Part shown: in pieces, positions 11,331 through 57,448 of the stretch | Layout of the letters: each line of letters starts with the position of its first letter | Position numbering within the stretch: the first letter of the stretch is position 1 | DNA from: Streptomyces sp. DSM 15324 | GTDB taxonomy: Bacteria > Actinomycetota > Actinomycetes > Streptomycetales > Streptomycetaceae | NCBI RefSeq assembly: GCF_001514285.1 | Contig: NZ_KQ949028.1 | Span: 186,001 to 250,000 of the forward strand | Reading direction: 5' to 3' | DNA length: 64,000 bases | Notes under the pieces: generated by a model | The model's input: only the letters and a program-made list of their open reading frames with translations | Database searches by the model: none | Told to the model about the DNA's origin: nothing | Made by a program: the position numbers and the translations under genes

Positions 11331-11535
11331 TTTTTGCGGCCAGCGGCTGGAGGGGTGCACGGTCGTAGGCGTTCGCCCTGGGGCCCAACATGATCAGGTA
11401 CTCGACCGGTTGGCCGGGGCCGGCGTTCGCCACGCCGTGTGGGGTGCGGGTGTCGAACTCGGCGACGTCCCCGGCAGTCAGGACGTGACCGACCGGCCCA
11501 GAGGCACCGTCCTGGTGCGCACACCGTACGGGTCG
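11331..11535 (-). pseudogene. Cupin domain fragment
   Basis: The minus strand encodes GPVGHVLTAGDVAEFDTRTP, HGVANAGPGQPVEYLIMLGP and a short tail before homology is lost. GDVAEFDTRTPHGVANAG is the second half of a cupin_2 domain as found at the C-terminus of XRE-cupin regulators. No DNA-binding domain or start codon is attached. It lies just downstream of the aldehyde dehydrogenase fragment and probably results from the same rearrangement. Confidence 0.45.
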
Positions 11536-11611
11536 GCGTCGTGGTGGATGGTGTGCGTGCACGGTCCGACCCGCTGACCGCACCGCTGGAGATCATGGGA
11601 GCACCGGTCGA

Positions 11612-11940
11612 CGCGGACTGATTGACCATCAGCAGGCCGGCGGACACCCTGCGCCGACCGAGTACCCTCCGCGCGTGTCCGGCAGCCCACGCGATGTGTT
11701 CGATCGCGAGCCCTGCCTCGAGCGTCGCGTCGCCGACCGGTTTGCCGGTCTCGCGGTGCACCGTTTCGATGAGCTCGGGCAGTCGCCGGACCATCGTGGT
11801 CTTCCACGCCGTCAGGTGCCGCCCGCGCTCCGTGAAGCTGAGGCCGGCCCACCAGGCGGCCTCGGTGCGGGCGAGGTCGACGGCCGCGCGTACCTCCTCC
11901 TCGGTGTGCACCGGGGGGTGGGTACCGACGACCTCGTCGT
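11612..11940 (-). pseudogene. N-terminal fragment of an aldehyde dehydrogenase
   Basis: About 110 residues on the minus strand: VVGTHPPVHTEEEVRAAVDL, WWAGLSFTERGRHLTAWKTT, ELIETVHRETGKPVGDATLE and HARRVLGRRRVSAGLLMVNQ. This is the N-terminal part of an NAD-dependent aldehyde dehydrogenase; the cofactor and catalytic Cys domains are missing. It directly follows the class II aldolase gene, so the intact operon presumably ended with a dehydrogenase for the aldehyde the aldolase releases. Confidence 0.65.
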
Positions 11941-11970
11941 GCCTTGTGGCGCCGGCGCCAGGAGGTTGGG

Positions 11971-12618
11971 TCAGGGCCGGTATCCGCTGGCTGTGGCACG
12001 GCGCCATACGTCTTCGAGCTGCTCGCTCGTCAGCGTCGCCGGCTCTGCGACGTGGGCTGCCCGCAGGTACAGGCATGCGAGCCATTCGACCGATTCGGCG
12101 TTGTGGACCGCCTCGGCCAAGGTGGCGCCACTGGCGACCGCACCGTGGTTGCGCATGAGCGCGGCCTTCCGGTCGAGCATCGCGTGGCGCACGTTGTCGG
12201 CGAGTTCCTGGGTGCCGAAGGTCGCGTAGGGCGCCACGCGGACCGGGCCTCCGAGCAGGAGGATGGAGTAGTGGACGCTGGGCAGCTCGTCGCGCACCAG
12301 GCCGAGGGCGGTGGCCCACGGCGCGTGCGTGTGCACGATGGCCTCGGCGTCGGTTGTGCGGTAGATCCCCAGGTGGAGGGGGGTTTCCGAGGAGGGTGAG
12401 GTCGCGCCCGCGTCGAGGACGTCGCCGTCGAGTGTGACGCGGGCGATGTCGGCGGGTTCCAGAGTCTGGTAGCTGACTCCGGACGGCGTCACGAGTACCT
12501 GGTCACCGATGCGGACGCTGAGGTTTCCCGATGTGCCGGTGACGAGCCCGGTGTCGTGGAGGTGCCGGCTCGCGTCGACGAGAGCTTGCCGGGTCTTCCG
12601 TTCGGTCGTGTCGTCCAC
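11971..12618 (-). CDS. Class II aldolase/adducin-family protein
   Basis: 215 residues, the size of L-fuculose-1-phosphate aldolase. Zinc ligands are visible: H96 and H98 in VHTHAPW and H158 in MRNHGA; the catalytic Glu would be E78 in SSETPLHLGIY. GTSGNLSVR is the phosphate-binding GN-S motif. GTG at 12618 begins the homologous region; the open frame extends far upstream without homology. It should cleave a phosphorylated keto-polyol to dihydroxyacetone phosphate and an aldehyde, fitting the PfkB kinase at the head of the operon. Last intact gene of the operon. Confidence 0.85.
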   Translation of the reverse strand: MDDTTERKTRQALVDASRHLHDTGLVTGTSGNLSVRIGDQVLVTPSGVSYQTLEPADIARVTLDGDVLDAGATSPSSETPLHLGIYRTTDAEAIVHTHAPWATALGLVRDELPSVHYSILLLGGPVRVAPYATFGTQELADNVRHAMLDRKAALMRNHGAVASGATLAEAVHNAESVEWLACLYLRAAHVAEPATLTSEQLEDVWRRATASGYRP

Positions 12619-12701
12619 TGCGTGGTCACCGTGTCCGTTCTTGTGCCGTTGCTTCTTGCCGTTGCATGGGGTGACGGCTGTCGGGGGCTTGTGCGGACGG
12701 T

Positions 12702-13121
12702 TCAGTGCGTCAGGGCACCGGCCGTCACGTTGCGGACCACGAGGGGGAGCCGGCGTGCGAGTTTCCTGCCGAGCAACACGGCGTAGAGGCGGTGCAGGGG
12801 GCCGTCGAGGACGACGCCGTGGGTGGCGCGCATGCCCTCGCCGACGGGCTCCATGTCGTGGGTGATGGTCAGGGTGGCCAGTGGCAGCCGGATGACGAAG
12901 TCCATGGCGCGTTCGTGTTCGACGCGGGTGAACTCGATCTTCTGGGCCGGGGCGCCGTGGTCCTTGACGACTCCGGTGGTTCCGACGGTGAGGGGGCCGT
13001 CGATCTGGGCCCAGGCGACGCCGGGGTCGTCGAGCTGCCACAGGGCGGCGTTCGTCCATCGCTCCCACAGCTGGGGGGCGGTGGCGGTGGTCAGCTGGCT
13101 GTGGTGGGTGCTCCAGGTCAT
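12702..13121 (-). CDS. SRPBCC (START/polyketide cyclase-like) protein
   Basis: 139 residues forming a helix-grip fold: MTWSTHHSQLTTATAPQLWE, with a beta-rich middle (FVIRLPLATLTITHDMEP) and a long C-terminal helix. These proteins bind hydrophobic ligands; some act as cyclases or co-inducers, and no reaction can be assigned. Its ATG overlaps the stop of the amine oxidase (ATGA), so they are co-translated. About 80 bases separate it from the aldolase start. Confidence 0.8.
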   Translation of the reverse strand: MTWSTHHSQLTTATAPQLWERWTNAALWQLDDPGVAWAQIDGPLTVGTTGVVKDHGAPAQKIEFTRVEHERAMDFVIRLPLATLTITHDMEPVGEGMRATHGVVLDGPLHRLYAVLLGRKLARRLPLVVRNVTAGALTH

Positions 13122-14506
13122 CGGCTTGCCTTCTCGTCGTGCGTGGTGGCGGTGAGTTCGATGGCCGTCTTGCGCGCGGCGCGCTCGCCGGCCGCGACGG
13201 CGCCGTCCATGAATCCGGCCCAGCGTCGCGCGGTCTCGGTGCCGGCCCAGTGGATGGGGCCGACCGGCTCCGCCAGCCGGGCGTGCAACGAGGCGACCGC
13301 TCCGGGGCCCGGTGCCGCCGTGGGCCCGCCGCCGAGCCAGTCCTCCTCGCCCCACCGCTGGTCGGTGTAGCCGCGTGGTTGCAGTGCGCGTTCACCGAAG
13401 AGGTCCGCGAGTGCCGAGAGAGCGCGCACACGCCGTTCGTCGGCGTCCACCGCGTCCCACTCGCGTGCGTAGTCGCCTCCGATGAAGCCGAGGACGACGC
13501 CGCGGGAGCCGTCGGGAGGGCTGGCGTCGAAGGTGATGAAGACGGGGCCTTCGTCGGAGATCGTCATGCCGCTGAGGCCCTGTTCGCGCCAGAACGGCGT
13601 GTCGTAGACGGCGTAGATCTTGGACAGGACGCCGGGCGACCAGCGCTGTGAGAGGCGCCGGTGCGCGGCGGGGAGTTCGGGGACGAACCGGATCCGGCGT
13701 CGCATGGCCGGCGGCACCGCGACGATGACGCGCCGTGCGGTGGTGGGGCCGTCGTCGGTGTGGACGGTCACGGCGTCGTCGCTCCAGTCGATCCGCAGGA
13801 CCGGCGACCCCAGGCGGACGGTGTCCGCACCCAGTCCGTCGGCGACGCGGACCGCGACCTCGTGCGAGCCCTCGACGAAGTGCTGCTCCTGGGCGCCGTC
13901 GCGGGTGTCTAGCATCGAGTCGAGCCCGCCGGCCTGGGCGATGTAGTGCAGCACGTGCAGCAGTGAGATCTCCGAGGGTTCGCAGCCCCACGAGGTCTTG
14001 CACACCACCGCCATCAGGTCTTGGGTGCCCTGCCCGGCGTGCTTGGCGGTGAGCCAGCCGCCGAGCGTCTGGGCGTCGAGGCCCGCAGCGTCGGGGGCGT
14101 CAAACGGGCGGCCGACGGGGATCCTGCGACTCATCCGCTCCAGGGTGGAACGGATACGGGCGAGGTCCAGCAACGAGGTGGCACCGATCGGAGGTACGGC
14201 CCCGCGGTACCGCTTGCGGTCCTTGCGCCACATCAGCAGGTTGTCCCCGGCCTCGTGCGTAAGGTAGCGGCCCACGCCGACCTCGTCGGCGAGGGAGTTG
14301 ATGTGGTCGTGGTCGGGACCGACGAAGGTGCCTCCGAGATCGACACGCGCGTCGGCGACGGTGGCGGAGTCGACCCGGCCTCCGACTCTGTCGAGCGCCT
14401 CGAACACCTTCACGCGCAGTCCGTACCGCTGCAGGCTGCGGGCGGCGGCGAGACCGGAAAGCCCGGCTCCCACCACCACGACGTCGAGATCGACGCTGTC
14501 GGTCAT
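13118..14506 (-). CDS. Flavin monoamine oxidase-family protein
   Basis: 462 residues. The N-terminal FAD-binding motif is GAGLSG at 13-18 followed by VFEALDRVGGRVDS, the GG doublet of the amine oxidase family. The C-terminal FAD motif is IHWAGTETARRWAGFMDGAV. Such enzymes oxidise primary or secondary amines to imine/aldehyde, ammonia and peroxide. ATG at 14506 follows AAGGAG and overlaps the MFS stop (ATGA); its own stop overlaps the SRPBCC start. The combination with a sugar-type kinase and aldolase suggests an amino-polyol or arylalkylamine substrate, which is inference. Confidence 0.9.
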   Translation of the reverse strand: MTDSVDLDVVVVGAGLSGLAAARSLQRYGLRVKVFEALDRVGGRVDSATVADARVDLGGTFVGPDHDHINSLADEVGVGRYLTHEAGDNLLMWRKDRKRYRGAVPPIGATSLLDLARIRSTLERMSRRIPVGRPFDAPDAAGLDAQTLGGWLTAKHAGQGTQDLMAVVCKTSWGCEPSEISLLHVLHYIAQAGGLDSMLDTRDGAQEQHFVEGSHEVAVRVADGLGADTVRLGSPVLRIDWSDDAVTVHTDDGPTTARRVIVAVPPAMRRRIRFVPELPAAHRRLSQRWSPGVLSKIYAVYDTPFWREQGLSGMTISDEGPVFITFDASPPDGSRGVVLGFIGGDYAREWDAVDADERRVRALSALADLFGERALQPRGYTDQRWGEEDWLGGGPTAAPGPGAVASLHARLAEPVGPIHWAGTETARRWAGFMDGAVAAGERAARKTAIELTATTHDEKASR

Positions 14507-15702
14507 GCTGGTTCTCCTTCGGGCAGAGGCTTGAGGGAAGCGGAAGTATGCGTCGGGAGCCGACGGGCGAGGGACAGCACGAGCAGGAGCGCGAGCGCGG
14601 GTGCCACGAACCCGAGCCGGAGGCCGGCACCGGTGCCGAGCAGGCCCGGGACGACAGCTCCGGCGACGGCGCCGGCATAGTTGAAGATGTTGACGCGGGC
14701 GATGACCTCGTCGCTGCGGGCGGGCAGCAGCAGACCGGCGGCCTCGAAGGCGATCGGCACCAGGACGCCGGTGGCGATCCCGGCGACCGCGAACCCCGCG
14801 ACCGTCGCCGCGACGCCCGGGCCGGCGACGACGAGGGCGCACCCGATCGTGCCGACAACGAGGGCGCCGACACCGACGCGACGTCGGCCCCAGCGCAGCG
14901 TGGCCGGGTCGGTCACGAGCCTGGCGAGCAGGACCATCGCCAGGTAGGCCGCGTAGCCGACCGGCGCGACAGCGGCGGAGGTCCTCAACCCGTCGGAGAG
15001 ATAGACAGTGCTCCAGGTCGAGACCGCCGCGTCCAGCACGTACGCGACGAGGACGAGCGACCCGACAGCCCAGATCGCCGCTCGCGGGAGCGGGATGCGC
15101 CGGCGGCCGGGCGAGGTGGTGTCCGCCGGGCGGGGCGGAGGCTGCGGCACGAGCCGGAACCGGCCGGTGAGCGCCACGGCGAGCTGCAGCAAGGCAACGC
15201 CCCCGACCAGGGTCAGTGCGGAGACACCGCGGGTGGCCAGAGCCGAGCTGAGGAGCGCTCCGATGATGCCGCCGACGGTGAAGGCCGAGTACAGGCGGCC
15301 CATCATGGGCACCCCGGTGCGGTTCTGCAGGGCGACGCCCTGCATGTTGTTGCCCGCGTCGACCGTGCCCAGGCCCAGACCGTAGACGGCGACCGCGCCC
15401 AGGTAGACGACTCGGTCGGGGGCGAGGCTCATCCCGGCGAGAGCGGCGGACTGCAGCAGGAATCCGAGGCACAGCGCGCTCCGGCTCCCACGGCGCACGG
15501 CGACCGCGTCCGCCAGCACCGACCCGAACACCGCGGCGACGCAGACCCCGAGCAGAATCACGGAGAGGACGGTGTCGCTGAAGTCCATGCGGTCCTTGGC
15601 CGCGGGAAGCGCGGTGACGACCGCTGCGTAGCCGACACCCTGAGCGGCGTACGCAGCGCAGACCATCAGCGTCGTCCCGCTCGGTCTCCTGCGGCGGCTC
15701 AC
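14503..15702 (-). CDS. MFS transporter (FucP-like/sugar type, 12 helices)
   Basis: 399 residues, hydrophobic throughout, with about twelve predicted membrane helices and DAGNNMQGVALQNR after helix 4, a feature of FucP/GlcP-type sugar facilitators. The GTG at 15702 is preferred because it overlaps the kinase stop (GTGA) and begins homology. It is second in the operon, between the PfkB kinase and the amine oxidase, so it probably imports the pathway substrate. The exact cargo is unknown. Confidence 0.85.
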   Translation of the reverse strand: MSRRRRPSGTTLMVCAAYAAQGVGYAAVVTALPAAKDRMDFSDTVLSVILLGVCVAAVFGSVLADAVAVRRGSRSALCLGFLLQSAALAGMSLAPDRVVYLGAVAVYGLGLGTVDAGNNMQGVALQNRTGVPMMGRLYSAFTVGGIIGALLSSALATRGVSALTLVGGVALLQLAVALTGRFRLVPQPPPRPADTTSPGRRRIPLPRAAIWAVGSLVLVAYVLDAAVSTWSTVYLSDGLRTSAAVAPVGYAAYLAMVLLARLVTDPATLRWGRRRVGVGALVVGTIGCALVVAGPGVAATVAGFAVAGIATGVLVPIAFEAAGLLLPARSDEVIARVNIFNYAGAVAGAVVPGLLGTGAGLRLGFVAPALALLLVLSLARRLPTHTSASLKPLPEGEPA

Positions 15703-16646
15703 TGTGTGTCCAGGCGGTCGGCGGTCGCGGCGAACGCGCGAACGGCGTCGAGCGTGTAGGTGCCGGCGTCGGTCCCGAGGCCGGCGACGACCTGTGCCGA
15801 CGTCGCGCAGCCGATCTCGGCCGCCTCCCGCAGCCCCAGCCCGAGCGACCGCGCACGCAGGAAGCCCGCGCTGAACGCGTCGCCGCACCCGGTGGTGTCG
15901 ACGACCTTCACCGCGTAGGCCGGGACCTCCACCACCTCGTCCGCGGTCACCACCACGGCACCATGGGCTCCGCGGGTCACCGCCACGCACCCGGCGCCGG
16001 CGCTCACGAGCGCGCGGGCGCCGGTGACCAGGTCGTCGGCGCCGGTGAGGCCCATCACCTGCTCATGGTTGGGCAGCAGGTAGTCGGTCTCGGGCAGCGC
16101 GGCGGCGATCCACTGAAGGATGGTCGGGTCGCCGGGGGCGAGCATGTCGACCGAGGTCGTCGCACCGCACGCGCGGGCCCGGGCCAGCAGCGAGGCGGCG
16201 GCGTCGCCACCCAGGAACTCCGGACCACCGAGGTGCAGATGCGTCAGGTCACGCAGTTGTTCGTCGGTGACGTCGACGGGGGTGAACACCGCGTTCGCCC
16301 CGATGCAGTGCCAGGCCGGGCGGTCGCCGCCCGGGCGGACAGGCAGCACGGAGGCCGATGTCTGGTGGCCCGCCTTGCGCAGCAGACCGGAGGTGTCCAC
16401 GCCTTCGCGGACCAGGAGCGCCAGGAGCGTGTCCGCGAGGACGTCGTCCCCGATCGCTCCGATGCTGCGGACATCGGCTCCCAGCCGCGCCGCCACCAGT
16501 GCTGTCCCGCCGGCAGTGCCGGCGGCTGTGGCCCGGATGGTCTCGACCAGCTGACCGTCGTTGTGCTCGGGGATGGACGCGATCCCGATCACCAGATGGT
16601 CGAGCACGTGCACGCCCACGCACGCCATCTTCATCACGTCGCTCAT
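15699..16646 (-). CDS. PfkB-family carbohydrate kinase
   Basis: 315 residues, ribokinase fold. The C-terminal signature DTTGCGDAFSAGFL holds the catalytic base D256 and the anion hole; the N-terminal GGTALVAARLGADVRSIGAI is the first family signature. It would phosphorylate a sugar, polyol or nucleoside using ATP. ATG at 16646 has GAGGAGG just upstream. It is first in the operon leading to MFS, amine oxidase, SRPBCC and aldolase genes, and faces the AraC regulator gene across a promoter region of about 230 bases. Confidence 0.9.
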   Translation of the reverse strand: MSDVMKMACVGVHVLDHLVIGIASIPEHNDGQLVETIRATAAGTAGGTALVAARLGADVRSIGAIGDDVLADTLLALLVREGVDTSGLLRKAGHQTSASVLPVRPGGDRPAWHCIGANAVFTPVDVTDEQLRDLTHLHLGGPEFLGGDAAASLLARARACGATTSVDMLAPGDPTILQWIAAALPETDYLLPNHEQVMGLTGADDLVTGARALVSAGAGCVAVTRGAHGAVVVTADEVVEVPAYAVKVVDTTGCGDAFSAGFLRARSLGLGLREAAEIGCATSAQVVAGLGTDAGTYTLDAVRAFAATADRLDTQ

Positions 16647-16879
16647 CGTGTGTTCCTCCTCCACCTCGCTCCGGCTCGTGGTGCGACGTGCGTCGCCAAG
16701 CGCCGGCCGGTTGCCGGGCCGCGACCACGAACGGTTGAGTGACGGTAGGAAGCGCCGCTTTGAATCTGGGCGCGGTGTGACGCTTATGGCAGCATTTCCC
16801 CCCGTCATGGCGCGAACGCGCACCCTCCTCGCCTCCGGCGCTGGGAGATTGCGGCGACAGGATGCCGAGGAGGCGGACT

Positions 16880-17902
16880 GTGGACAAAGCCAAGCTGAAC
16901 CAGGCCACGATTCCTCCGGTGATCCTGACCGGGTTGCTCGAACTGGCCGACCAGGACCGAATCGAGACGGCCAGGTGGTTCGCGGGCACGGGCCTTGACC
17001 GGGCCCGGCTGGAACAGTCCCGGACGCTGGTCTCCTACCGGCAGGCGATCACCGTGATCCGCCGCGCCCTGAAGGAACTGCCCGCCGGACCGATCGGCCT
17101 CATGATCGGAAGCCGCGACCCACTCCTCACCTGGGGAACACTCGGCACCGCCGTGCGGTCCGCGTCGACGGGCGCCGAGGCTCGCGAGGTCGCGACCCGG
17201 TTCCACCAAGGGGCGGGCACGATGATGGACTACGTCGTGTCCCGCACGGACCAGGCAAACGTGATCGAGCTCCTGCCCCGCACCCACGAGCCGGACCTGC
17301 TGACCTTCCTCAGCGAGGAGGCCTTCGCCGGGATCGTGGTCCTCACCCGGCTCATGTTCGGCCCGTCATCCGGCCCGCTGGCCGCAGAACTGTCCTACCC
17401 GCCGCCACCGTGGGCTGCGGCGTACACCCGACTGTGGCGCTGTCCGGTCACCTTCGACTGCGAACGCACGACTCTCACCATGCCCGGTTCCCTCGAGGAG
17501 CGGCGCATTCCCACGGCGAACGCCACACAGTTCGACGCCGCTCTGCAGGCAACGCGCGCGATCCTGGAGGCTGACCCGGTCGACGACGTCGTAGCGGCCG
17601 TCGAAGGCACACTTCGCCAGGACCTCCGCTCCCGCCGAACGGCGACGCAGGTCGCGGACGCGCTCGGCATGAGCCCCCGCACCCTTCATCGTCACCTCGC
17701 CAAAGCCGGGTACAGCTTCGGCACGATCCAGGACCGGGTACGGCGGCAGCAGGCCGACGTACTGCTGACCCAAACACGCAGGTCGATCACCGCCATCGCA
17801 GCTGAAATCGGCTACAGCGACCCGCGTGAGTTCCGCCGCGCCTACAAACGATGGACCGACACCACGCCCACCCAAGCGCGAAAAAGCGTGCGGCTCTTTT
17901 GA
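16880..17902 (+). CDS. AraC-family transcriptional regulator
   Basis: About 340 residues. The N-terminal part has the OruR/ArgR-like AraC ligand-binding domain (PF12625 type), and the last hundred residues the double helix-turn-helix: TATQVADALGMSPRTLHRHL and ITAIAAEIGYSDPREFRRAY. GTG at 16880 is chosen because GAGGAGG is six bases upstream; an ATG at 16862 is also in frame. Divergent from the PfkB operon, which it most likely activates. No operator could be defined by eye. Confidence 0.9.
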   Translation: MDKAKLNQATIPPVILTGLLELADQDRIETARWFAGTGLDRARLEQSRTLVSYRQAITVIRRALKELPAGPIGLMIGSRDPLLTWGTLGTAVRSASTGAEAREVATRFHQGAGTMMDYVVSRTDQANVIELLPRTHEPDLLTFLSEEAFAGIVVLTRLMFGPSSGPLAAELSYPPPPWAAAYTRLWRCPVTFDCERTTLTMPGSLEERRIPTANATQFDAALQATRAILEADPVDDVVAAVEGTLRQDLRSRRTATQVADALGMSPRTLHRHLAKAGYSFGTIQDRVRRQQADVLLTQTRRSITAIAAEIGYSDPREFRRAYKRWTDTTPTQARKSVRLF

Positions 17903-20490: not shown

Positions 20491-21625
20491 CTAGCGGACG
20501 GAACGGATGCGGTAGACGAGCAGGGCTCCGATGGCCGCGGTCACGCCCACGAGGGTGAACAGGAGCGGATAGCCGTGTCGGGAGTTGATGATGACGCTGG
20601 CGATCAACGGGGCCAGGGCCGGTGGGATGATGGAGCCGATGTTCATGATGCCGAGGTCCTGGGCGCGGCTCTCGGCATCGGGCAGCACCTGGGTGATCAA
20701 CGCTTGGTCGACAGCCATGTAGGCGCCGAAGCCTGCGCCCATGAGCGCGGATGTCACCAGCAGGACGGAGTAGGTCGGAAAGCTTGCCAGAAGGAAGCCG
20801 GACGCCGCCTGGAGCAGCGCTGCCAGGGCGACGAAGATCCTTCGCCTGCCGAGGCGGTCCGACAGCGCTCCAGCGACAGCGGTCGCTACCAGCCCGGCCA
20901 GGAGGTAGACGACGGTGCAGACGAGCAGCCCGCTGTCAGGATCGGGCACCTTGAGCGCGTCGGTGAGGTAGTAGAGCGTATAGCAGACACCCAGCGAGTT
21001 CGCCAGGTTGACCAGCAGCCGTCCGCCGAAGGCCCAGGAGAACTCACGGTTCTTCAGTGAGCTGCCCATGGAGGTGAGCACGGCGCGCAGCCGCAGCGGC
21101 GGTTCACTGCCGTAGGCGGCCTCACGGTAATGCAGCAGGAACGGCACCATGCAGATGATCAGCATGGCTGCCATGACGGCGAACGCTGCCTGGGGGGAGA
21201 GGGCGAAGGCCGAGGTAGCGGCGATGCCGACCACCACGCCGAGGGCCTGAGGGCCGTAGATGGCGCTGGAGATCATTCCCCGCTGGTTCTCGGGGACGCG
21301 GTCGGCGATGACGGCGGTCAGTGCGGCGGTGACCGCGCTGAGTCCCAGCATGCTCGCCGACCATGCCACCGTCACGCCTGTGACCGTCGTTTGTGCGCCG
21401 GTGACGATCAGTCCGGCGGCGAAGGCCAGGGCACCGACGGCGAGCCAGAGTCTGCGCCGGCCGAAGCGGCTGCGGGAACGGTCGCACAGCGCGCCGCATA
21501 GGGGGAGGGCGACGAGCGCCGCCAATCCGGAGACACCGTTGACGACGGCGAAGTCGGAGACCTTCGAGGCCGGTTCGATGGCCTCCAGTTGCTGGGGGAG
21601 CAGCAGCTGGAGGGGGACGAGGTTG
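20491..21625 (-). pseudogene. 5'-truncated MFS transporter
   Basis: The frame contains PLQLLLPQQLEAIEPASKVS before the first in-frame start, and then about ten membrane helices with DRSRSRFGRRRLW and DRLGRRRIFVAL loops. Homology therefore begins before any usable start codon: the first helix and start are missing because the region is joined near 21628 to the beginning of an amidohydrolase gene in another frame. An internal ATG/GTG at 21525 could give a 344-residue product lacking the first helix or so, unlikely to be functional. Likely related to glycoside-pentoside-hexuronide or similar carriers. Confidence 0.7.
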
Positions 21626-21627
21626 CG

Positions 21628-21838
21628 TCTGCCAGGTGTGCCGATGTGTGTCGATCATGCCGGGCGCCACGATGTGCCCCGTGACGTCCACCGTCTCCGC
21701 CTCGTCGACGGAGAGGTCCGGTGCCACCGCGGCGATCACACCGTCCTCGATCAGCACGTCACCTCGGGACAGGTCCCCCAGACGCGGATCCATGGTGAGG
21801 ACGGTGCCGCCGCGCAGCACAACGCGATGCCGAGCCAT
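21628..21838 (-). pseudogene. N-terminal fragment of an amidohydrolase
   Basis: MARHRVVLRGGTVLTMDPRL, then DVLIEDGVIAAVAPDLSVDE and HIVAPGMIDTHRHTWQT: the start of an imidazolonepropionase/guanine deaminase/ATZ-type metal-dependent hydrolase including the first metal motif DTHRH. After about 70 residues homology stops and the frame reads out-of-frame MFS sequence. A deletion has joined the two genes. Confidence 0.75.
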
Positions 21839-32208: not shown

Positions 32209-33345
32209 ATGCGCATCCCGAAGCGCGTCGCCGTGATCGGTGCCGGCAGCATGGGCAGCCAGGCCATGTGGCGACTGGCCGCCCGCGGAGCCGAGGTCAT
32301 CGGCTACGACCGGTACGCACCGGGTCACGACCGCGGCGCGGCCGGGGGCGAGAGCCGCATCTACCGGGCCGTCCACCTCGGGGAGCCCGCGTACATTCCT
32401 CTGCTGCGGCTGGCGGACCGGATGTGGGAGCAGCTGCAGGCGGAGACGGGCCGGTCGCTGCGACGCCGCAGCGGCAGCCTGGTGATGGGGGAAGCCTCCT
32501 CACCGTCCATGAGCCTCCTCCTCTCCACCAGCACCGCCCAGGGACTGGATCACGAGGTCCTGGAGAGAGAGGAACTTGCCCGCCGCTACCCGCAACACCG
32601 GCTCCCGGACGGACACATCGCCGTCCTGGACCGGTTGGGCGCCGTCATCAGGCCGGAGGCGTCCATCCAGGCCGCCGCTACGCGTGCCGAGCACCTGGGC
32701 GCCCGGCTCCACCGCTACACCACGGTGCGCGAGGTCGTCCCCGCGGCGGGCGGCGGGGTGCGGGTCGTCACCGACCAGGGCACCGACCACGTGGACACCG
32801 CCGTGGTGACCGTGGGCCCCTGGATCAACACACTGCTCCCGGACCTTCCCCAAGCCGTCGACGTACGGCGGGTGGTCTGCTCCTGGCACCTGCCCACCCG
32901 CCACGACTGGTTCGCGGGCGGTGCTCCCTCGTTCGTGCGCGCCGTACCGCACGACTGCTTCGGAATCCCGTCACCCGACGGCATCTCCGTCAAGCTCGGT
33001 CTCTCCTTCAAGTACCACACGCCGGTGCCCGAGCCCGAACGGCTCGACCGCACCGTCCGCCCCGAGGAACTCGGCACCTTCCGCGAGCTCATCGATGAAC
33101 TCATGCCCGACCTGAACCCCGACCCCATCAGGATGTCGGCCTACATGGAGGGCTACACCCGGTCCGGGAACCCGCTCGTCGGTCACCTCCCTGGCGAGGA
33201 CGACATCATCGTCATGGCCGGGTTCTCCGGCAGCGGCTTCAAGATCTCGCCCGCGATGGGAGAGATCGCCGCCGACCTGGCGCTCGACGGCACCACCCGG
33301 CACCCCGCCGCCTTCCTCGCTCCGGCGGGTGTCGGCGCCGCCTGA
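32209..33345 (+). CDS. FAD-dependent oxidoreductase, sarcosine/N-methyltryptophan oxidase-like
   Basis: 378 residues of the SoxB/SolA family. The N-terminal dinucleotide motif is IGAGSMGSQAMWRLAARG; GGESRIYR matches the family's (H)GxSR(I/T)xR; the C-terminal FSGSGFKISPAMGEIAADLA is the second FAD region. In monomeric sarcosine oxidase a Cys just before YT carries FAD covalently; here the segment is AYMEGYTRSGNPLVGH with no Cys, so FAD binding is probably noncovalent. It oxidises an N-methyl or secondary amine. GAGAGGAG precedes the ATG. Next gene is the HAD protein, about 110 bases on. Confidence 0.85.
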   Translation: MRIPKRVAVIGAGSMGSQAMWRLAARGAEVIGYDRYAPGHDRGAAGGESRIYRAVHLGEPAYIPLLRLADRMWEQLQAETGRSLRRRSGSLVMGEASSPSMSLLLSTSTAQGLDHEVLEREELARRYPQHRLPDGHIAVLDRLGAVIRPEASIQAAATRAEHLGARLHRYTTVREVVPAAGGGVRVVTDQGTDHVDTAVVTVGPWINTLLPDLPQAVDVRRVVCSWHLPTRHDWFAGGAPSFVRAVPHDCFGIPSPDGISVKLGLSFKYHTPVPEPERLDRTVRPEELGTFRELIDELMPDLNPDPIRMSAYMEGYTRSGNPLVGHLPGEDDIIVMAGFSGSGFKISPAMGEIAADLALDGTTRHPAAFLAPAGVGAA

Positions 33346-33454
33346 TCACCGGCGATCGTCCACGGCGTCGCCCCGCACTCCATTGCCTGTCGCGAGCATG
33401 ACAAAAATGCCGCATCTGATCGGTCACCCACGCACAAGAGACTGGAGTACCTCC

Positions 33455-34135
33455 ATGCCCATCCCCTCGTTCCAGTTCCGCCCGAAGTACGTCTCGTTCG
33501 ACTGCTACGGCACGTTGATCGAGTGGCCGATGACCCCCATCACCCGTGAACTCGTCGGTGACCAGATCCCGGCCGAGCACTGGGACCAGTTCGTCAAGGA
33601 GTTCCGCGGCTACCGCTACGACTCGATCCTCGACGCGTTCCGCCCCTACGAGCAGACGCTGCAGGACGCCTTCGAGCGGGTCTGCCGCAAGTGGGGCGTG
33701 AAGGCCGCTCCGGACGGCGGCAAGCGGTTGGCCGACGGCGTGCGCAGCTGGGGCCCGCACGCGGACGTGCCGGAACCGCTGAAGAAGATGGGCGAGCACT
33801 ACAAGCTGGTCATCCTCTCCAACGCCGAGGACTCCTTCCTCGCGGAGAGCGTGCCCCGGCTCGGCGCGGACTTCCACGCGGTCTTCACCGCGGAGCAGGC
33901 CGGCTACTACAAGCCCCGCTACGCGGCGTTCGAGTACATGCTCGACCAGCTCGACGCGTCCCCCGACGACTTCGTGCACGTCTCCTCGCACACCCGCTAC
34001 GACCTGCTGCCGATGCACGACATGGGTTTCCGCAACCTCGTCCTCCTGGACCGCGGATACGACCCGGTCACCCACGGCTACGACTACGTGACCGTCAAGT
34101 CCCTCGACGAGCTCAACCGGATGCTGGGCATCTGA
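33455..34135 (+). CDS. HAD-superfamily, haloacid dehalogenase type II-like hydrolase
   Basis: 226 residues. The nucleophile D16 is in YVSFDCYGTLIEW, motif II is VILSNAEDSFL, the lysine is in GYYKPRYAAFEY and the acidic motif is HVSSHTRYDLLPMHDMGFRN. This is the layout of L-2-haloacid dehalogenase-like enzymes; the type II N-terminal D-x-Y-G-T motif fits. True dehalogenase activity cannot be concluded; phosphatase activity on a pathway intermediate is possible. GGAG precedes the ATG at 33455. Confidence 0.85.
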   Translation: MPIPSFQFRPKYVSFDCYGTLIEWPMTPITRELVGDQIPAEHWDQFVKEFRGYRYDSILDAFRPYEQTLQDAFERVCRKWGVKAAPDGGKRLADGVRSWGPHADVPEPLKKMGEHYKLVILSNAEDSFLAESVPRLGADFHAVFTAEQAGYYKPRYAAFEYMLDQLDASPDDFVHVSSHTRYDLLPMHDMGFRNLVLLDRGYDPVTHGYDYVTVKSLDELNRMLGI

Positions 34136-34180
34136 CGCGCCACGACGACGTCCCACCCCCGGACCGACCCACACATCGTC

Positions 34181-34257
34181 CCCCCGCATCACGGGCTCCC
34201 CGTATCCCCCGCATCACGGCCCCCGTGTCCCTCGCATCACAGGCTCCCCGTATCCCC
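34181..34257. repeat. Three imperfect tandem repeats
   Basis: A unit of about 25 bases (CCCCGCATCACGGGCTCCCC plus GTATC) occurs three times with changes in the middle and last copies. It occupies the gap between the HAD gene and the substrate-binding protein gene. It may bind a regulator or just be a slippage product. Confidence 0.6.
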
Positions 34258-34279
34258 GCGTTCCCCAGGAGGCACCGCC

Positions 34280-35299
34280 ATGGAAATCAACCGCACAGGC
34301 CGCAGAACCGTACGCCGCACCGCAGGCGCCGTCGCGGCCGCCATGCAGGTCAACAGGCAGTTGAGCATCCCGATCGTCACGACCGCCCTGGCCCTCGCAC
34401 TCGCCGCGTGCGGGGCCGGCGCCACCGGGCAGAACGTGGGGGCGAAGAGCACGGCACAGGGCGGAGGATCCGGCCCCTCTGCCGAGCACACCGACGACAT
34501 CTCGATGGGTGTGAAGCCCGACCCGAACGCGGTGAAGCTGCTACCCGCGGCGGTGAAGGCCAAGGGCACGCTGTCGGTGGCCATGGACCTGGCGTACCCG
34601 CCCACCACGTTCATGGCATCGGACAACAAGACCCCGGTCGGGTTCAACCCGGACATGGCCCGGCTGATCGCCGCCGAGCTCGGGCTGAAGCTCCAGATCA
34701 ACAACGTCAAGTTCGACACCATCATCACCGGACTGCAGGCCAACCGGTACGACTTCACCGCCTCCACCATGGGCGCCACGAAGGAACGGCTGCAGGCGCT
34801 CGACATGGTCGACTACTTCAACGCCGGGACCGGGGTGTCCGTGCCCTACGGCAACCCGCAGAAACTGGGCACCCACACGCTGTGTGGCCACCGGGTCGGT
34901 GTCACGTCCGGCAGCACCCAGGAGCTGCAGTGGCTGCCCCAGCTGTCGAAGGAGGACTGTACGAGCAAGGGCAAGCCGGCCATCAAGGCCGTGACCCTGC
35001 CCAGCGTGAACGACGCTCTCACCCAGCTGGTCTCCAAGCGGATCGACGCCGTGATGTACGACTTCGTTGCGCTCGAGTGGGCGGCCACGCAGCAGCCCGA
35101 GACGTTCGACGTCCTCAAGCCCCTGGTGACCACCAAGCCCGTGACCGTCGCCCTGAAGAAGGACTCGCCGCTGACCCCCGCGGTGCAGGCCGCCCTCCAA
35201 GCGATCATCGACAGCCCCAAGTACGCCCAGGCACTGGGCCGCTGGGGGCTCCAGGACCTCGGCATCAAGACCGCGGCCGCGGCCGTCCCGCAGGACTGA
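34280..35299 (+). CDS. ABC transporter substrate-binding lipoprotein (polar amino acid type)
   Basis: 339 residues. A long type II signal peptide ends in the lipobox LALAAC, with C44 as lipidation site; the mature part is an SBP_bac_3 domain (GTLSVAMDLAYPPTTFMASD, NPDMARLIAAELGLKLQINN, DFTASTMGATKERLQALDMV). AGGAGG seven bases before the ATG supports the start at 34280. It captures an amino acid or amine for the permease and ATPase that follow. Confidence 0.92.
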   Translation: MEINRTGRRTVRRTAGAVAAAMQVNRQLSIPIVTTALALALAACGAGATGQNVGAKSTAQGGGSGPSAEHTDDISMGVKPDPNAVKLLPAAVKAKGTLSVAMDLAYPPTTFMASDNKTPVGFNPDMARLIAAELGLKLQINNVKFDTIITGLQANRYDFTASTMGATKERLQALDMVDYFNAGTGVSVPYGNPQKLGTHTLCGHRVGVTSGSTQELQWLPQLSKEDCTSKGKPAIKAVTLPSVNDALTQLVSKRIDAVMYDFVALEWAATQQPETFDVLKPLVTTKPVTVALKKDSPLTPAVQAALQAIIDSPKYAQALGRWGLQDLGIKTAAAAVPQD

Positions 35300-35306
35300 G
35301 ACGCCG

Positions 35307-36262
35307 ATGGACGTGATCGAGACGACGACCAGGAGCGGACCGGTGCCTCAACTACGGGCCGAAGAGAAGAAGAGGATCACGCCGAAACGTCCGCGCGACT
35401 ATGTCGCCTGGGCCGTCGCCATCGCGATCGTCGGCGGCCTGGTGTGGACCGCGGTGACGAACGAGCACTACCGCTGGCCCGTGGTGTTCAGCTACTTCAC
35501 CACGCAGACCATCCTCGACGGCCTGCTGGTCACGCTGCTGCTGACCGCGGCGAGCATGGGTCTGGGCACGCTGCTGGGACTGGTGCTGGCGGTGATGCGC
35601 ATGTCGCACCAGCGGCCCGTGTCCGGGCTGGCCCAGCTCTACATCACCTTCTTCCGCGGCACCCCGGTGCTCGTGCAGCTGGTCTTCTGGTTCAACATCG
35701 CGGCGCTGTACCCGAATCTCTCGATCGGCGTCCCGTTCACCGACATCTCCACGCCGGTGAACGTGAACGCGATCATGACGCCGATGACCGCGGCCATCGT
35801 GGGGCTGACGCTCAACCAGGCCGCCTACATGTCCGAGATCATCCGCGGCGGGTTCGCCTCGGTCAGCCGCGGACAGCATGAGGCCGCAGAGTCACTGGGC
35901 ATGTCGGGTTTCACCAAGCTCCGCCACGTGATCATCCCGCAGACGATGCCGGCGATCATCCCCGCCACCGGCAACCAGGTGATCGGCATGCTCAAGGAGA
36001 CGTCGCTGGTGAGCGTGCTCGGCGTCGCCGACCTGCTGCAGAGCGCCCAGGCGATCTACGCCCGCACCTACCAGACGATCCCGCTGCTGATCGTGGCCAG
36101 CCTCTGGTACCTGATCATGACGCTGGCGCTGAGCGTGCCCCAGTCCATGATCGAACGCCGCTTCTCCCGCTCCACCCGGGCACGGCTGACCCCGGCCGCC
36201 ACCTCGGCCGAGCCCGGGACCGGGGCCGGCCAACTCGTTCCCCCTACGAGGGAGTCGCTACT

Positions 36263-36266
<4 letters not shown>
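35307..36266 (+). CDS. ABC transporter permease (HisM/GlnP type)
   Basis: 319 residues with about five to six membrane helices after a polar N-terminus. The cytoplasmic EAA loop [20 protein letters not shown] contacts the ATPase. [16 protein letters not shown] is typical of polar amino acid permeases. It starts eight bases after the binding protein stop and its TGA overlaps the ATPase GTG (GTGA). Confidence 0.92.
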
Positions 36267-37030
<764 letters not shown>

Positions 37031-37253
37031 AAGCGGCTGGACACGCGGAAGCGGCCGTGCCGACAAGCGTGGAGAAGGCGCCGGCCGACCGCGGGTGACG
37101 CAACGCCCTCCCGCCCGTCCGCGTCCTCAACACCCCCAATACGACGTCGAACTCGCCCTCGCCGGCGTCAGCGCCCCCGCCATCTCTCAGTCCGCGAACT
37201 CCGGGCGGTGCCCGGTCACCCCCCACTTCGAAACTCCCCGCTAAGGACCCGAC

Positions 37254-38534
37254 ATGAAGACGATTCCCTACTGGATAGAAACCGCCGGGGCGTTTCCCGA
37301 CCGATCAGGCAAGCCGCTGACCGAGGACACCGACCTGGTGGTCGTCGGCGCCGGCCTGACGGGTCTGTCCACCGCCCTCCACTCCGCCCGCAAAGGCGCC
37401 CGCGTCACCCTCGTCGAGAAGGGCCAGATCGGCTCCGGTGCCTCCGCGCGCAACGGCGGCATGGCCAACCTGGGCTTCACGATCGGCGTGGGCCAGGCCA
37501 TCCGCCGGTACGGACTGGAGCGGGCCCGCGAGATCTACAACTCCTACGGCGAGGCCGTGGACACCGTCGAGCGGATCGTGAAAGAGGAGTCCATCGACTG
37601 CCAGTTCCGCCGCGTCGGACGCCTGGGCGTCGCGTCCCGCCCCGCGCACTTCGAGAGCAAGAAGGCCCAACAGCGCGACCTGGCCAAGCACTTCGGACAC
37701 GAGACCACTCTGGTCGGCAAGTCCGAGCTGCGTTCCGAGATCGGATCCGACGCCTACCACGGCGGCCTGCTCGACCCGTTCAGCGCCGCACTGCACGTCG
37801 GCCGCTTCGTGCGCGGCATGGCCGAGGCGTGCGAGCGCGCCGGTGTCGAGATCCACGAGCGCAACGCGGCCATCGGCGTGCGCCGTACCGCCGCGGGCCG
37901 GTTCGAGGTCAGCACCGAGCGCGGTGTGATCCGCGCCGGGCAGGTCATGATGGCCACCGACGCCTACACCGACAAGAACTTCCCGTGGCTGCGCCGCCGG
38001 CAGGTCTGCCTGGGCAGCTTCATCATCGTGACCGAGCCGCTCGGCGAGGACCTCGCCCGGGACATCATCCCGAAGGCCCGCCTCATCGTCGACTCCAACC
38101 AGGTCTGCCACTACTTCCGGCTCACCCCGGACAACCGGCTGCTGTTCGGCGGCCGCGCCCGCTTCGCACCCTCCGACCCCGCCTCGGACAAGAAGAGCGG
38201 GGCCGTCCTGTTCCGTGAGATGTGCGAGATCTTCCCCCAACTCGCCCGCACGAAGGTCGAGTACGTGTGGGGCGGCTCCGTCGGTTTCGCGATGGACCGC
38301 ATCGTGCACGCCGGGCAGACCGAGGACGGCGTCCACTACTCCATGGGATACGCGGGCCACGGCGTGCAGATGGCCACGCACATGGGGCAGGTCATGGCCG
38401 AGGTGCTGGACGGCCACCCCGAGGCCAGCCCGGTCCGCGACCTGGCCCCGCCCCGCATCCCCCTCTACAACGGCACTGCCTGGTTCCTGCCCTTCGCGGG
38501 CGCCTACTACAAGACGCTGGACCGCATCCGCTGA
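37254..38534 (+). CDS. FAD-dependent amine/amino-acid oxidase (PuuB/DadA type)
   Basis: 426 residues, DAO family. The N-terminal FAD motif VVGAGLTGLSTALHSARKGA and EKGQIGSGASARNGGMANLG are clear; the C-terminal GYAGHGVQMATHMGQVMAEV is the second FAD contact. Closest by layout to gamma-glutamylputrescine oxidase. It would convert an amine to an aldehyde that the next gene's dehydrogenase oxidises. AAGGA precedes the ATG. Directly follows the importer. Confidence 0.88.
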   Translation: MKTIPYWIETAGAFPDRSGKPLTEDTDLVVVGAGLTGLSTALHSARKGARVTLVEKGQIGSGASARNGGMANLGFTIGVGQAIRRYGLERAREIYNSYGEAVDTVERIVKEESIDCQFRRVGRLGVASRPAHFESKKAQQRDLAKHFGHETTLVGKSELRSEIGSDAYHGGLLDPFSAALHVGRFVRGMAEACERAGVEIHERNAAIGVRRTAAGRFEVSTERGVIRAGQVMMATDAYTDKNFPWLRRRQVCLGSFIIVTEPLGEDLARDIIPKARLIVDSNQVCHYFRLTPDNRLLFGGRARFAPSDPASDKKSGAVLFREMCEIFPQLARTKVEYVWGGSVGFAMDRIVHAGQTEDGVHYSMGYAGHGVQMATHMGQVMAEVLDGHPEASPVRDLAPPRIPLYNGTAWFLPFAGAYYKTLDRIR

Positions 38535-38577
38535 CCGGTCGGCAGCCCCTCACCACACATCCAAGGAGATACCCACG

Positions 38578-48086: not shown

Positions 48087-48820
48087 AGGCCATGACGACC
48101 GGCCGGATCCACTCCTGGGACCTGTCCACCGGCGTGGACGGTCCCGGGACCCGGTTCGTGCTCTTCGTCTCCGGCTGCCCGCTGCGCTGTCTGTACTGCG
48201 CCAACCCCGACACCTGGCACATGCGCGACGGCCGGGAGACGACCGTGGACGAGGTGATGGCGGAGATCGAGAAGTACCGCGCCTTCCTCACCACGGCCGG
48301 CGGTGGGGTGACGATCACGGGGGGAGAGCCGCTGCTCCAGTCGGCCTTCACCAGTGAGGTGCTGCGGCGCTGCAAGGAGACCGGGTTGCACACCGCCCTG
48401 GACACCTCCGGCTTTCTCGGGGCCCGTGCGGGCGACGAGCTCCTCGCCGACACCGACCTGGTCCTGCTGGACATCAAGTCCTTCGACATCGGCGCCTACC
48501 GGAAGCTGACCGGCGGCCGGCTCGCACCCACCCTCAGCTTCGCCACCCGCCTGGACCGCCTCGGCGTCCCGACATGGATCCGCTACGTGCTGGTCCCCGG
48601 CTGGACCGACGACCCGAGGTCCGTGGATGCCCTGGCCCGGTTCGTCGCCGGTCTGGGCACGGTCCGACGGGTCGACGTGCTGCCCTTCCACAAGCTCGGC
48701 GCGCCCAAGTACGCGGCCCTCGGCATCCCCTTCCCGCTGCGCGACACCCCGGTCCCCGACCCGGCCCTGACCGAGAGCGTCCGCGCCCGCTTCCGCGCGC
48801 GGGGTGTGCCCGCCTACTGA
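48083..48820 (+). CDS. pflA: Pyruvate formate-lyase-activating enzyme (radical SAM)
   Basis: 245 residues. Cluster motif CPLRCLYC gives C32, C36 and C39 (Cx3Cx2C); [14 protein letters not shown] is the SAM-binding loop. It uses SAM and a 4Fe-4S cluster to make the glycyl radical in PflB. GTG at 48083 overlaps the pflB stop; an ATG three codons later is possible. Co-translated with pflB. Confidence 0.95.
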
Positions 48821-52459: not shown

Positions 52460-52489
52460 CCGCCTCTCCCCTCGAAGGAGTTCACCGCC

Positions 52490-52558
52490 ATGACCGTCCG
52501 CGTCGGGATCAACGGCCTCGGCCGCATCGGCCGCACCTATCTGCGCGCCCTGGACCGT
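52490..52558 (+). pseudogene. gap: First 23 codons of glyceraldehyde-3-phosphate dehydrogenase
   Basis: AAGGAG then ATG MTVRVGINGLGRIGRTYLRA, the NAD motif of GapA. Homology ends at ALDR and unrelated sequence follows, ending in the upstream region of the alcohol dehydrogenase. Most of the gene has been deleted. It starts 30 bases after the phosphoketolase stop, as an operon partner would. Confidence 0.8.
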
Positions 52559-52587
52559 GCCGAGGCGGGGCCGACGGGGTGGGTGGA

Positions 52588-52603
52588 AGGGCCGTTCGGT
52601 CCC
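52588..52603 (+). promoter_or_regulatory. DevR-like box before the alcohol dehydrogenase
   Basis: AGGGCCGTTCGGTCCC, centred about 160 bases before the ADH start. It matches the consensus at 13 of 16. Confidence 0.55.
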
Positions 52604-52757
52604 TGTTCGGGTGGGTCCGGCGGTGCCTTTCGCCCTGACCCACGGGACTGTCGGCAGGCGAGGGAGGAAGGACTGCTCAAGCGGATCGTGCGATTGCCGG
52701 ACAAGCTGGATGTGAGAGGAGATCCCGTCAGTCGTGCACAGGAGGGTGAGGAGCGTC

Positions 52758-53828: not shown

Positions 53829-53893
53829 CGAGGCGGCCGACCGGGCGGACCACCGCGCTCACCGGGCCCGGCAGGGCCGGTCTCGGGCGGTCG

Positions 53894-53909: not shown

Positions 53910-53984
53910 TGGCCAGGGACACGGGTGGCCGTCGACGATGGGCAGTGCCCGTACGGCGATGTCAGCCGAGGGACGAGAAGGAAG

Positions 53985-57442: not shown

Positions 57443-57448
57443 CTCCAC

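Follow-up and report, generated by a model that had tools for sequence, protein, structure and literature searches.

Pairs of a kinase and a class II aldolase are commonly classed under the salvage of sugars or nucleosides. In 5-deoxyribose disposal, or the DHAP shunt (DrdK, DrdI and DrdA), such a pair yields dihydroxyacetone phosphate (DHAP) and an aldehyde, as would an operon of Streptomyces sp. DSM 15324 located in the window, the whole 64,000-nucleotide stretch of DNA that was analysed. According to the parts of the report drawn on here (PMC6079011), the shunt uses a kinase of the 5-methylthioribose kinase type (MtnK) and an isomerase-made ketose, whereas the window operon encodes a PfkB kinase and adds an amine oxidase, replaced elsewhere by an aminotransferase. 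No isomerase was found among the operon proteins scanned, and an MtnK-type kinase is also absent there, placing the operon outside the drdKIA type. The non-carboxylating pentose bisphosphate pathway of halophilic archaea, as described in the cited sections of its report (PMC9700705), resembles the operon in its ribulose-1-phosphate aldolase, which is the closest curated model for the window aldolase, and in the products, DHAP plus an aldehyde, but it employs R15P isomerase and RuBP phosphatase, which are both absent from the window operon.

Among the closest solved relatives of the window oxidase are cyclohexylamine oxidase (CHAO; 4i58) and the bacterial monoamine oxidase 8p84. CHAO has an open aromatic cage formed by Y321, F368 and Y459 and prefers alicyclic and sec-alkylamines (PMC3608611, in part). 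In fumonisin breakdown, the C2 amine is removed after hydrolysis by an amine oxidase (yeast) or by FumI, a GSAM-related, pyruvate-dependent aminotransferase; the portion of the source used here describes no kinase-aldolase step, and the likeness is by analogy alone (PMC2933618). In P. aeruginosa, the regulon of the AraC-type regulator SphR (sphBCD) includes one gene for an oxidoreductase and another that is aldolase-like (PMC3900636, in part). By description, SphC, a predicted periplasmic FMN-linked oxidoreductase (PMC11893366, in part), is set apart from the window oxidase, and SphD, a PLP threonine-aldolase-like enzyme, from the window aldolase. A narrow search of the open-access literature returned, among the matches listed, neither the gene set nor a phytosphingosine or sphingoid-base aldolase pathway, in line with an earlier note on this DNA that knew of no described pathway using the set. 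The kinase and DHAP aldolase are of a known kind; the putative deamination entry is the addition, and no description of it was found in that search.

The five operon genes lie on the minus strand in the order kinase, transporter, oxidase, SRPBCC and aldolase, and are faced by a divergent regulator gene. The features are as follows:

16862..17902, plus strand: AraC-type regulator with an Arabinose_bd N-terminal domain (PF12625)
16647..16861, no strand: promoter region separating the divergent regulator and kinase genes (from the sequence)
15699..16646, minus strand: ribokinase-like kinase of the PfkB family, encoded by the first operon gene (PF00294, 144 bits)
14503..15702, minus strand: MFS transporter (PF07690, 78 bits)
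13118..14506, minus strand: flavin amine oxidase (PF01593, 238 bits)
12702..13121, minus strand: SRPBCC-fold protein (no Pfam match; predicted structure)
11971..12618, minus strand: class II aldolase of the FucA / ribulose-1-phosphate type, GTG start (PF00596, 182 bits)
11606..11935, minus strand: broken aldehyde dehydrogenase (ALDH; PF00171, 50 bits on the typed piece)
11353..11571, minus strand: possible remnant of a cupin gene (Cupin_2 at 24.5 bits, under the cut-off of 27.2; match at about 11392-11487)

The kinase/MFS, MFS/oxidase and oxidase/SRPBCC joints were read from the sequence as 4-nt GTGA or ATGA overlaps, bearing out the stop-to-start overlaps described in the earlier note, and a gap of 83 nt separates the SRPBCC stop from the aldolase start. 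The GTG start of the MFS gene overlaps the kinase stop, and a later ATG at 15666 is an alternative start. The AraC-type protein, whose gene is 215 bp from the kinase start, is the likely switch of the operon; a search for AraC sites in the divergent promoter found no direct repeats, and the sole inverted repeat (arms 128 nt apart) was unconvincing. The five genes and the facing regulator were recovered as claimed, by Pfam matches or, for SRPBCC, by fold, but the segment 11970-11612, included in the claimed operon span, is not aldolase: it is the broken ALDH, which had been missed. An operon of S. jeddahensis (L113) has the same gene order, an intact ALDH and 92% DNA identity to the window. Since this order is shared and the partner genes recur in other families, the gene set is more than chance. 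The set of five genes with a divergent AraC-type regulator is confirmed as a genuine operon.

The closest NCBIfam model of the regulator is QhpR (NF049968), at 139 bits, below the cut-off of 250, and the protein is not assigned to QhpR. The kinase belongs to the PfkB family by its PF00294 match and ribokinase fold, and its structure model superimposes on 3in1 over 305 residues (Z 36.9, rmsd 2.6); against the named PfkB equivalogs of NCBIfam (ribokinase, fructokinase and others), its best score was 106.4 bits versus the ribokinase cut-off of 299.65. The aldolase belongs to the class II family (FucA / Ru1P type) by its PF00596 match and FucA residues. E73, H92, H94 and H155 of FucA are kept in all 90 kinase-clustered aldolases and Y113 in 87 of the 90 (duplicates included); we take the aligned residues to be the metal histidines and catalytic Glu. 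The closest aldolase model is ribulose-1-phosphate aldolase (NF053831), at 212.5 bits against a cut-off of 300, and neither kinase nor aldolase reached any NCBIfam equivalog cut-off. Because the aldolase retains the catalytic and metal residues of FucA, its sequence predicts a substrate of the ketose-1-phosphate type. This is consistent with the phosphorylated keto-polyol proposed in the earlier note.

The window ALDH aligns with the S. jeddahensis ALDH (502 residues) over residues 28-136 only; its beginning and roughly the final three quarters are missing. With the ALDH broken, the pathway may be decaying in the window strain, which would need another genomic ALDH. The intact copy also bears on a biosynthetic reading, in which the oxidase would make an aldehyde for the aldolase to condense with DHAP. 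One study did find that a FucA-type aldolase condensed DHAP with every aldehyde tried (PMC9700705, in part), but the S. jeddahensis ALDH would remove that aldehyde, the kinase would be superfluous, and no further biosynthetic enzyme was found among the operon proteins scanned; we regard biosynthesis as very improbable.

The oxidase belongs to the flavin monoamine oxidase family by its PF01593 match and a conserved Lys, presumably the residue near flavin N5. Its GGP motif contains a Pro, as in CHAO. At the CHAO cage positions, counted by hand on the alignment, Tyr321 is replaced by Leu and Tyr459 by Phe, whereas F368 is kept. Lys, Leu, Phe and Pro occupied the mapped positions in all 36 kinase-linked oxidases counted (L112_05, L145_04 and L146_06 were left out), and the pocket residues Leu, Phe, Pro and Phe/Tyr are mostly apolar. 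The pocket Pro was rejected as a pathway mark: Pro and Phe also occur in five of 18 oxidases with no kinase seen alongside, as judged for 17 of them from 1.5 kb flanks, indicating that the pocket is a clade trait. In an oxidase tree that excluded L112_05, L145_04, L146_06, L144_08 and the uncalled oxidase of L165, the kinase-linked oxidases formed two groups (two changes forced by the starred branches), and the two are associated with different SRPBCC types.

The window SRPBCC protein, which matched no Pfam family, was modelled with a pLDDT of 95.6 and has the SRPBCC / START-like fold (TM 0.87 to 3ijt and about 0.7 to PYR/PYL receptors). A search with it gave matches in 38 of 394 genomes, but in the 1.5 kb flanks of the 30 SRPBCC loci examined, an oxidase or aldolase was found only at the window's own locus, and an MFS gene in two others. 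By itself, the window SRPBCC protein is not a guide to the gene set.

Conservation was examined in 121 distinct loci drawn by kinase similarity, a sample dominated by Nocardioides and Streptomyces. L112, which lacks a kinase by design, L193 and L208, where no kinase exceeded the threshold, and five duplicates, defined as identical kinase segments among loci with a called kinase gene, were dropped before counting. Within 6 kb of the kinase, an aldolase was present in 93 loci and an amine oxidase in 38; a class III aminotransferase took the place of the oxidase in 15, and both deaminating enzymes were missing in 68. SRPBCC genes were found in 14 loci, all 14 with an oxidase, and ALDH genes in only 12, the window's broken copy counted. 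All five partners were missing within 6 kb in 12 loci, including most Mycobacterium loci. In the part of the sample that was drawn evenly from the class (394 genomes), a kinase was scored in 44 other genomes, with an aldolase in 28 of them, an oxidase in 12 and an aminotransferase in 15.

AraC, MFS, aldolase, kinase, oxidase and SRPBCC genes also occur together at L098 and L149, and a plasmid of Streptomyces sp. NBC_00015 carries TetR, aldolase, kinase, oxidase and SRPBCC genes together, its oxidase-search and kinase-search matches being 1 kb apart. In the 22 loci from named Streptomyces records, an oxidase was present in S. jeddahensis only. An artefact of one clade was rejected, as oxidase-linked loci were found in Streptomycetaceae, Nocardioidaceae, Nocardiaceae, Dietziaceae, Pseudonocardiaceae and Frankia. 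Three MAGs labelled non-actinobacterial have ALDH, aldolase and kinase together, and an alanine dehydrogenase gene lies near the aminotransferase variant G440 and also at L207. The comparative survey suggested in the earlier note thus found the set conserved together.

Since 83 of the 121 loci are without an oxidase, we consider the kinase and aldolase to be the core and deamination to be one entry. The absence of the oxidase from these loci qualifies the earlier claim of prior deamination; a non-homologous aminotransferase beside related kinases fits it. The kinase and aldolase without an oxidase (59 of 121 loci: 51 with no other scored partner, five with ALDH and three with aminotransferase), together with oxidase relatives whose flanks contain no kinase, would also suit a bundle of two functions, such as nitrogen supply and ketose disposal, in which the amine handled by the oxidase and SRPBCC protein is unrelated to the kinase-aldolase step. 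We consider such a bundle unlikely: stop-start overlaps join the kinase, MFS, oxidase and SRPBCC genes, and two oxidase groups as well as the aminotransferase occur beside the same kinase family.

We propose that the operon is probably catabolic, serving an imported amino-alcohol that is deaminated, phosphorylated and cleaved to DHAP and an aldehyde, which ALDH converts to an acid. The MFS protein would import the compound, and the oxidase, by the chemistry of its family, would convert the amine-bearing carbon to a carbonyl with release of ammonia and hydrogen peroxide. Given the CHAO-like pocket and the requirement of the aldolase, the product would be a ketone rather than an aldehyde. Phosphorylation by the PfkB kinase at the terminal hydroxyl would then yield a 1-phospho-2-keto-3,4-diol, which the zinc aldolase, judged by its residues, would split into DHAP and an aldehyde for oxidation by the ALDH whose gene is intact in S. 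jeddahensis. As SRPBCC genes were found only where an oxidase is present in our sample, the SRPBCC protein is assigned to the oxidase step, perhaps holding a hydrophobic intermediate. A 2-amino-1,3,4-triol fits as the substrate, with phytosphingosine as the boldest of the candidates.

A small polar amino-polyol or amino sugar alcohol, giving DHAP and glycolaldehyde, glyceraldehyde or a similar product, is possible, though we would not expect it. The kinase and aldolase families act mostly on small sugars, the enzyme of the closest aldolase model produces glycolaldehyde (PMC9700705, in part), and a distant kinase (L189) lies alongside Dak1, Dak2, RpiB-like and triose-phosphate-isomerase genes and an ABC importer. 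However, the mostly apolar oxidase pocket and the preference of CHAO for alicyclic and sec-alkylamines (PMC3608611, in part) argue against a polar substrate, the SRPBCC partner would be unexplained, and the window importer is an MFS protein, not a sugar ABC system. A chloramphenicol-type aminodiol was rejected: cleavage by a DHAP aldolase requires a 3,4-diol, and the neighbouring hydrolases of L088 and L135 scored 218 and 192 with the chloramphenicol hydrolase model, far below its cut-off of 500; they were nearer the LipP1 model (321 and 304), whose cut-off of 350 was not reached either.

The phytosphingosine head group is exactly that required by the oxidase, kinase and aldolase steps, and proteins of the SRPBCC fold bind hydrophobic ligands. 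Phytosphingosine, or another sphingoid base whose head is a 2-amino-1,3,4-triol, would be oxidised to the 2-ketone, phosphorylated to the 1-phosphate and cleaved to DHAP and a long-chain aldehyde, from which ALDH would form a fatty acid. The match of the head group to the three steps, the pairing of two different SRPBCC proteins of hydrophobic-ligand type with the oxidase, the mostly apolar pocket and a hormone-sensitive-lipase-type hydrolase common to three loci all favour such a substrate. In 12 loci of the Nocardioides type, an S1P-lyase-like gene adjoins the kinase (at one of them a gene apart), and in G440 it lies about 8 kb away; the L084 protein is related by sequence to solved S1P lyases (287 bits to 3mad). 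As proof of a sphingolipid substrate, this neighbour was rejected as weak: S1P-lyase-like genes are frequent (107 of 394 genomes) and stand beside the kinase in only five of the 44 sampled genomes in which a kinase was scored, all of one genome type. The window strain's genome contains no S1P-lyase match at E <= 1e-60. Neither a ceramidase nor a sphingomyelinase came up among the neighbours that were annotated, and Streptomyces loci with the kinase and aldolase only are hard to explain by this route. We know of no PfkB kinase for long-chain bases, which also weighs against a sphingoid base. Exchange of oxidase and aminotransferase has a precedent on hydrolysed fumonisin, a sphingoid-like C2 amine (PMC2933618, in part). 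On balance, a sphingoid-base substrate seems improbable, and we are doubtful of the specific scheme of C2 deamination of phytosphingosine by an exchangeable oxidase or aminotransferase, C1 phosphorylation by PfkB and DHAP-aldolase cleavage to a fatty aldehyde.

A deaminating enzyme stands beside the kinase-aldolase pair in several actinobacterial families, through two unrelated enzyme types. An unassigned sugar-kinase family thereby becomes testable, and a substrate named for one member could hold for many genomes. If the substrate is lipophilic, the operon would give actinobacteria of the soil a new route for using sphingoid bases from plants and fungi; if the sphingoid route is true, the head group would enter glycolysis as DHAP and the tail would leave as a fatty aldehyde.

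We examined the anatomy of the operon, which consists of five consecutive genes and is faced by a divergent AraC-type gene, its putative regulator.

Genes of the operon
16646-15699, minus strand: PfkB kinase, first gene
15702-14503, minus strand: MFS transporter, second gene
14506-13118, minus strand: flavin amine oxidase, third gene
13121-12702, minus strand: small SRPBCC-fold protein (fold from model), fourth gene
12618-11971, minus strand: class II aldolase, fifth gene
16862-17902, plus strand: AraC-type gene with Arabinose_bd domain, divergent, 215 bp off the kinase

In the sequence, the kinase/MFS, MFS/oxidase and oxidase/SRPBCC joints read as 4-nt stop-start overlaps (GTGA, ATGA and ATGA, respectively), and a gap of 83 nt leads from the SRPBCC gene to the aldolase, which begins at GTG. 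The small protein had no match in Pfam or NCBIfam; its predicted model (pLDDT 95.6) adopts an SRPBCC fold, with a TM score of 0.87 against 3ijt and of about 0.7 against PYR/PYL receptors.

Past the aldolase, the end of the operon is broken. Positions 11935-11606 matched residues 28-136 of the S. jeddahensis aldehyde dehydrogenase (ALDH) and no other part of it; its beginning and roughly its final three quarters are missing. The sister operon of S. jeddahensis, 92% identical in DNA to 11938-17881 (regulator to aldolase), carries an intact 502-residue ALDH after its aldolase end. The best of the five other ALDHs listed for the window's genome (E <= 1e-60) is 39% identical to that enzyme. Beyond the remnant lies a possible cupin remnant, scoring under the Pfam cut-off, and another apparently broken gene was seen by eye near the operon, an amidohydrolase-like N-terminal fragment (21122-21838, minus strand) that overlaps an MFS reading frame.

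Two other regions of the window were noted. By eye, 32209-40029 holds a row of FAD oxidoreductases, a HAD-type gene, an ABC importer and an ALDH, the last also matched in the ALDH search; it may be another catabolic cluster, for an amine or a sulfonate. The stretches 45828-48820 and 50078-63886 hold, by Pfam match, a pyruvate formate-lyase-like protein with a glycine-radical domain, a radical-SAM neighbour, a phosphoketolase and a PPDK-type enzyme and then, by eye, apparent CBS-domain genes and a P-type ATPase, in the style of a low-oxygen island in Streptomyces.

To determine whether the gene set is kept together, a comparison that the earlier note suggested, we examined loci around relatives of the kinase. 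Of 394 genomes of the class, 46 have such a relative (E <= 1e-30), the window's own among them. The pooled sample of 128 sequences (45 loci of other genomes, 80 from a genome-collection scan, the second kinase locus L100 of the window's genome, an extra piece of genome G440 and the window) was reduced to 121 distinct loci by removing five duplicates and L193 and L208, where no kinase scored above the threshold. The sample was chosen by kinase similarity, and Nocardioides and Streptomyces are over-represented. Within 6 kb of the kinase, an aldolase was found at 93 of the 121 loci, an oxidase at 38 (83 had none), a class III aminotransferase at 15, an SRPBCC gene at 14, all 14 also with the oxidase, and an ALDH at 12, counting the window's broken copy; 12 loci, including most from Mycobacterium, had none of the scored partners. 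Leaving out the window's own genome, 44 of the sampled genomes had a scored kinase; 28 of them had the aldolase, 12 the oxidase, 15 the aminotransferase and two the ALDH. Oxidase-family matches numbered 0 to 16 per genome (61 genomes); even at 16 per 5-Mb genome, we estimate a chance of about 4% that any particular gene has one within 6 kb. L098 and Nocardia seriolae (L149) both combine AraC, MFS, aldolase, kinase, oxidase and SRPBCC genes; oxidase, SRPBCC, aldolase and kinase occur together in L088, L090-L092, L135, L144, L146, L150, L152, L153 and L165. Streptomyces sp. NBC_00015 has TetR, aldolase, kinase, oxidase and SRPBCC genes on a linear plasmid, where the kinase reading frame is present though missing from the record's incomplete gene list; a hormone-sensitive-lipase-type hydrolase (62 to 65% identity) is common to this plasmid, L088 and Dietzia L135. 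The partners thus recur in other genera, and the set is kept together.

An oxidase or aminotransferase lies near the kinase at 53 of the 121 loci. The class III aminotransferase, a relative of glutamate-1-semialdehyde aminomutase (GSAM), replaces the oxidase in 14 genomes of one family (f19) and in G440, where an alanine dehydrogenase lies close to it. That two unrelated deaminating enzymes adjoin one kinase family is the strongest support for the prior deamination proposed in the earlier note, whose place in the order of steps would be the first.

An oxidase tree comprised 35 kinase-linked sequences and 18 others (unlinked as judged from 1.5 kb of flank, one also from 18 kb); on it, the linked label needs two changes, forced by the starred branches. 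Oxidases of the window, S. jeddahensis and Rhodococcus spelaei form a group separate from the remaining linked oxidases. Each group has its own type of SRPBCC protein, and some members of the second, such as the leader-bearing ones, have none. The tree allows two recruitments of the oxidase to the kinase, or one recruitment plus losses. In the Nocardioides-type group (L081-L143), where the oxidase is divergent to TetR-aldolase-kinase, a simple pattern picks out a twin-arginine-type leader in 19 of 21 linked oxidases. Where a neighbour gene is SMP-30-like, 17 of 18 loci have the oxidase; two of these neighbours were scanned, and one reached the SGL cut-off while the other gave no match. Deamination in Nocardioides-type loci may occur outside the cell, because of these leaders and the SMP-30-like protein beside most of the oxidases.

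The substrate of a FucA-type aldolase is a 1-phospho-2-keto-3,4-diol, which the enzyme splits into DHAP and an aldehyde. In the alignment, 90 of 90 aldolase cluster members keep the metal histidines and the catalytic Glu of FucA, and 87 keep Tyr113. The aldolase scored under every equivalog cut-off, the nearest being ribulose-1-phosphate aldolase (212.5 of 300), with L-fuculose-phosphate aldolase at 170 of 264. In both sequence and fold the kinase resembles ribokinase, but it matches no named type. The nearest solved relatives of the oxidase are the bacterial MAO 8p84, then MAO-A and cyclohexylamine oxidase; the Pro of the GGP motif is common to it and the last of these. The mapped pocket of all 36 linked oxidases has Leu, Phe, Pro, then Tyr (32) or Phe (4), and the conserved Lys is kept; the Pro also occurs in 5 of 18 unlinked oxidases. 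Cyclohexylamine oxidase has an open cage and prefers alicyclic and sec-alkylamines (PMC3608611). A ketone product is therefore plausible.

The likeliest mechanism, which we consider fairly probable, is a catabolic route in which the substrate would be imported, oxidatively deaminated to a ketone, phosphorylated at an end hydroxyl and cleaved to DHAP and an aldehyde, which would then be oxidised; the SRPBCC protein may have a part in it. The layout of the genes, their co-conservation and the kept residues are shown, and the order of the steps, the substrate and what the SRPBCC protein and the regulator do are inferred. The operon would work like 5-deoxyribose disposal (PMC6079011) and the haloarchaeal ribulose-1-phosphate route (PMC9700705). 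We assigned it to neither, because its kinase type differs from that of the former and, unlike both, it has a deaminating enzyme instead of an isomerase or phosphatase. No described pathway with this gene set was among the matches listed in narrow searches of the open-access literature.

Every 2-amino-1,3,4-triol fits the proposed route, and phytosphingosine is a common natural one. We consider a sphingoid base such as phytosphingosine a rather unlikely substrate. Hints at it are the mostly apolar oxidase pocket, the SRPBCC folds and the S1P-lyase-like neighbour in 12 Nocardioides-type loci (nearby in G440), each weak alone; S1P-lyase-like genes are widespread (107 of 394 genomes). A further such hint comes from hydrolysed fumonisin, whose sphingoid-like C2 amine is removed in yeasts by an amine oxidase and in a bacterium by a GSAM-related aminotransferase (PMC2933618). 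A small amino-polyol is a somewhat likelier but still tentative candidate, favoured by a distant kinase relative (38%) from an uncultured actinobacterium, whose sugar-type cluster (L189, 9974-20504) holds Dak1, Dak2, RpiB-like and triose-phosphate-isomerase genes as well as an ABC importer.

A simpler form was also found. The second kinase of the window's genome, 55% identical to the first, adjoins an aldolase and a TetR gene, and all 22 loci of named Streptomyces records from the genome-collection scan have the aldolase, with the oxidase in S. jeddahensis alone. In Kitasatospora and Williamsia (L173, 7903-9276; L179, 7830-9203), a protein with PF17885, the styrene-monooxygenase substrate-binding domain, directly precedes the aldolase-kinase pair and may be yet another, third type of enzyme for the entry step. 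ALDH, aldolase and kinase stand in a row in three MAGs labelled Deltaproteobacteria, Binatus and proteobacterium (L185, L186 and L187). TetR-aldolase-kinase is thus the usual form in Streptomyces, and the core extends past Actinomycetota if these MAG labels hold.
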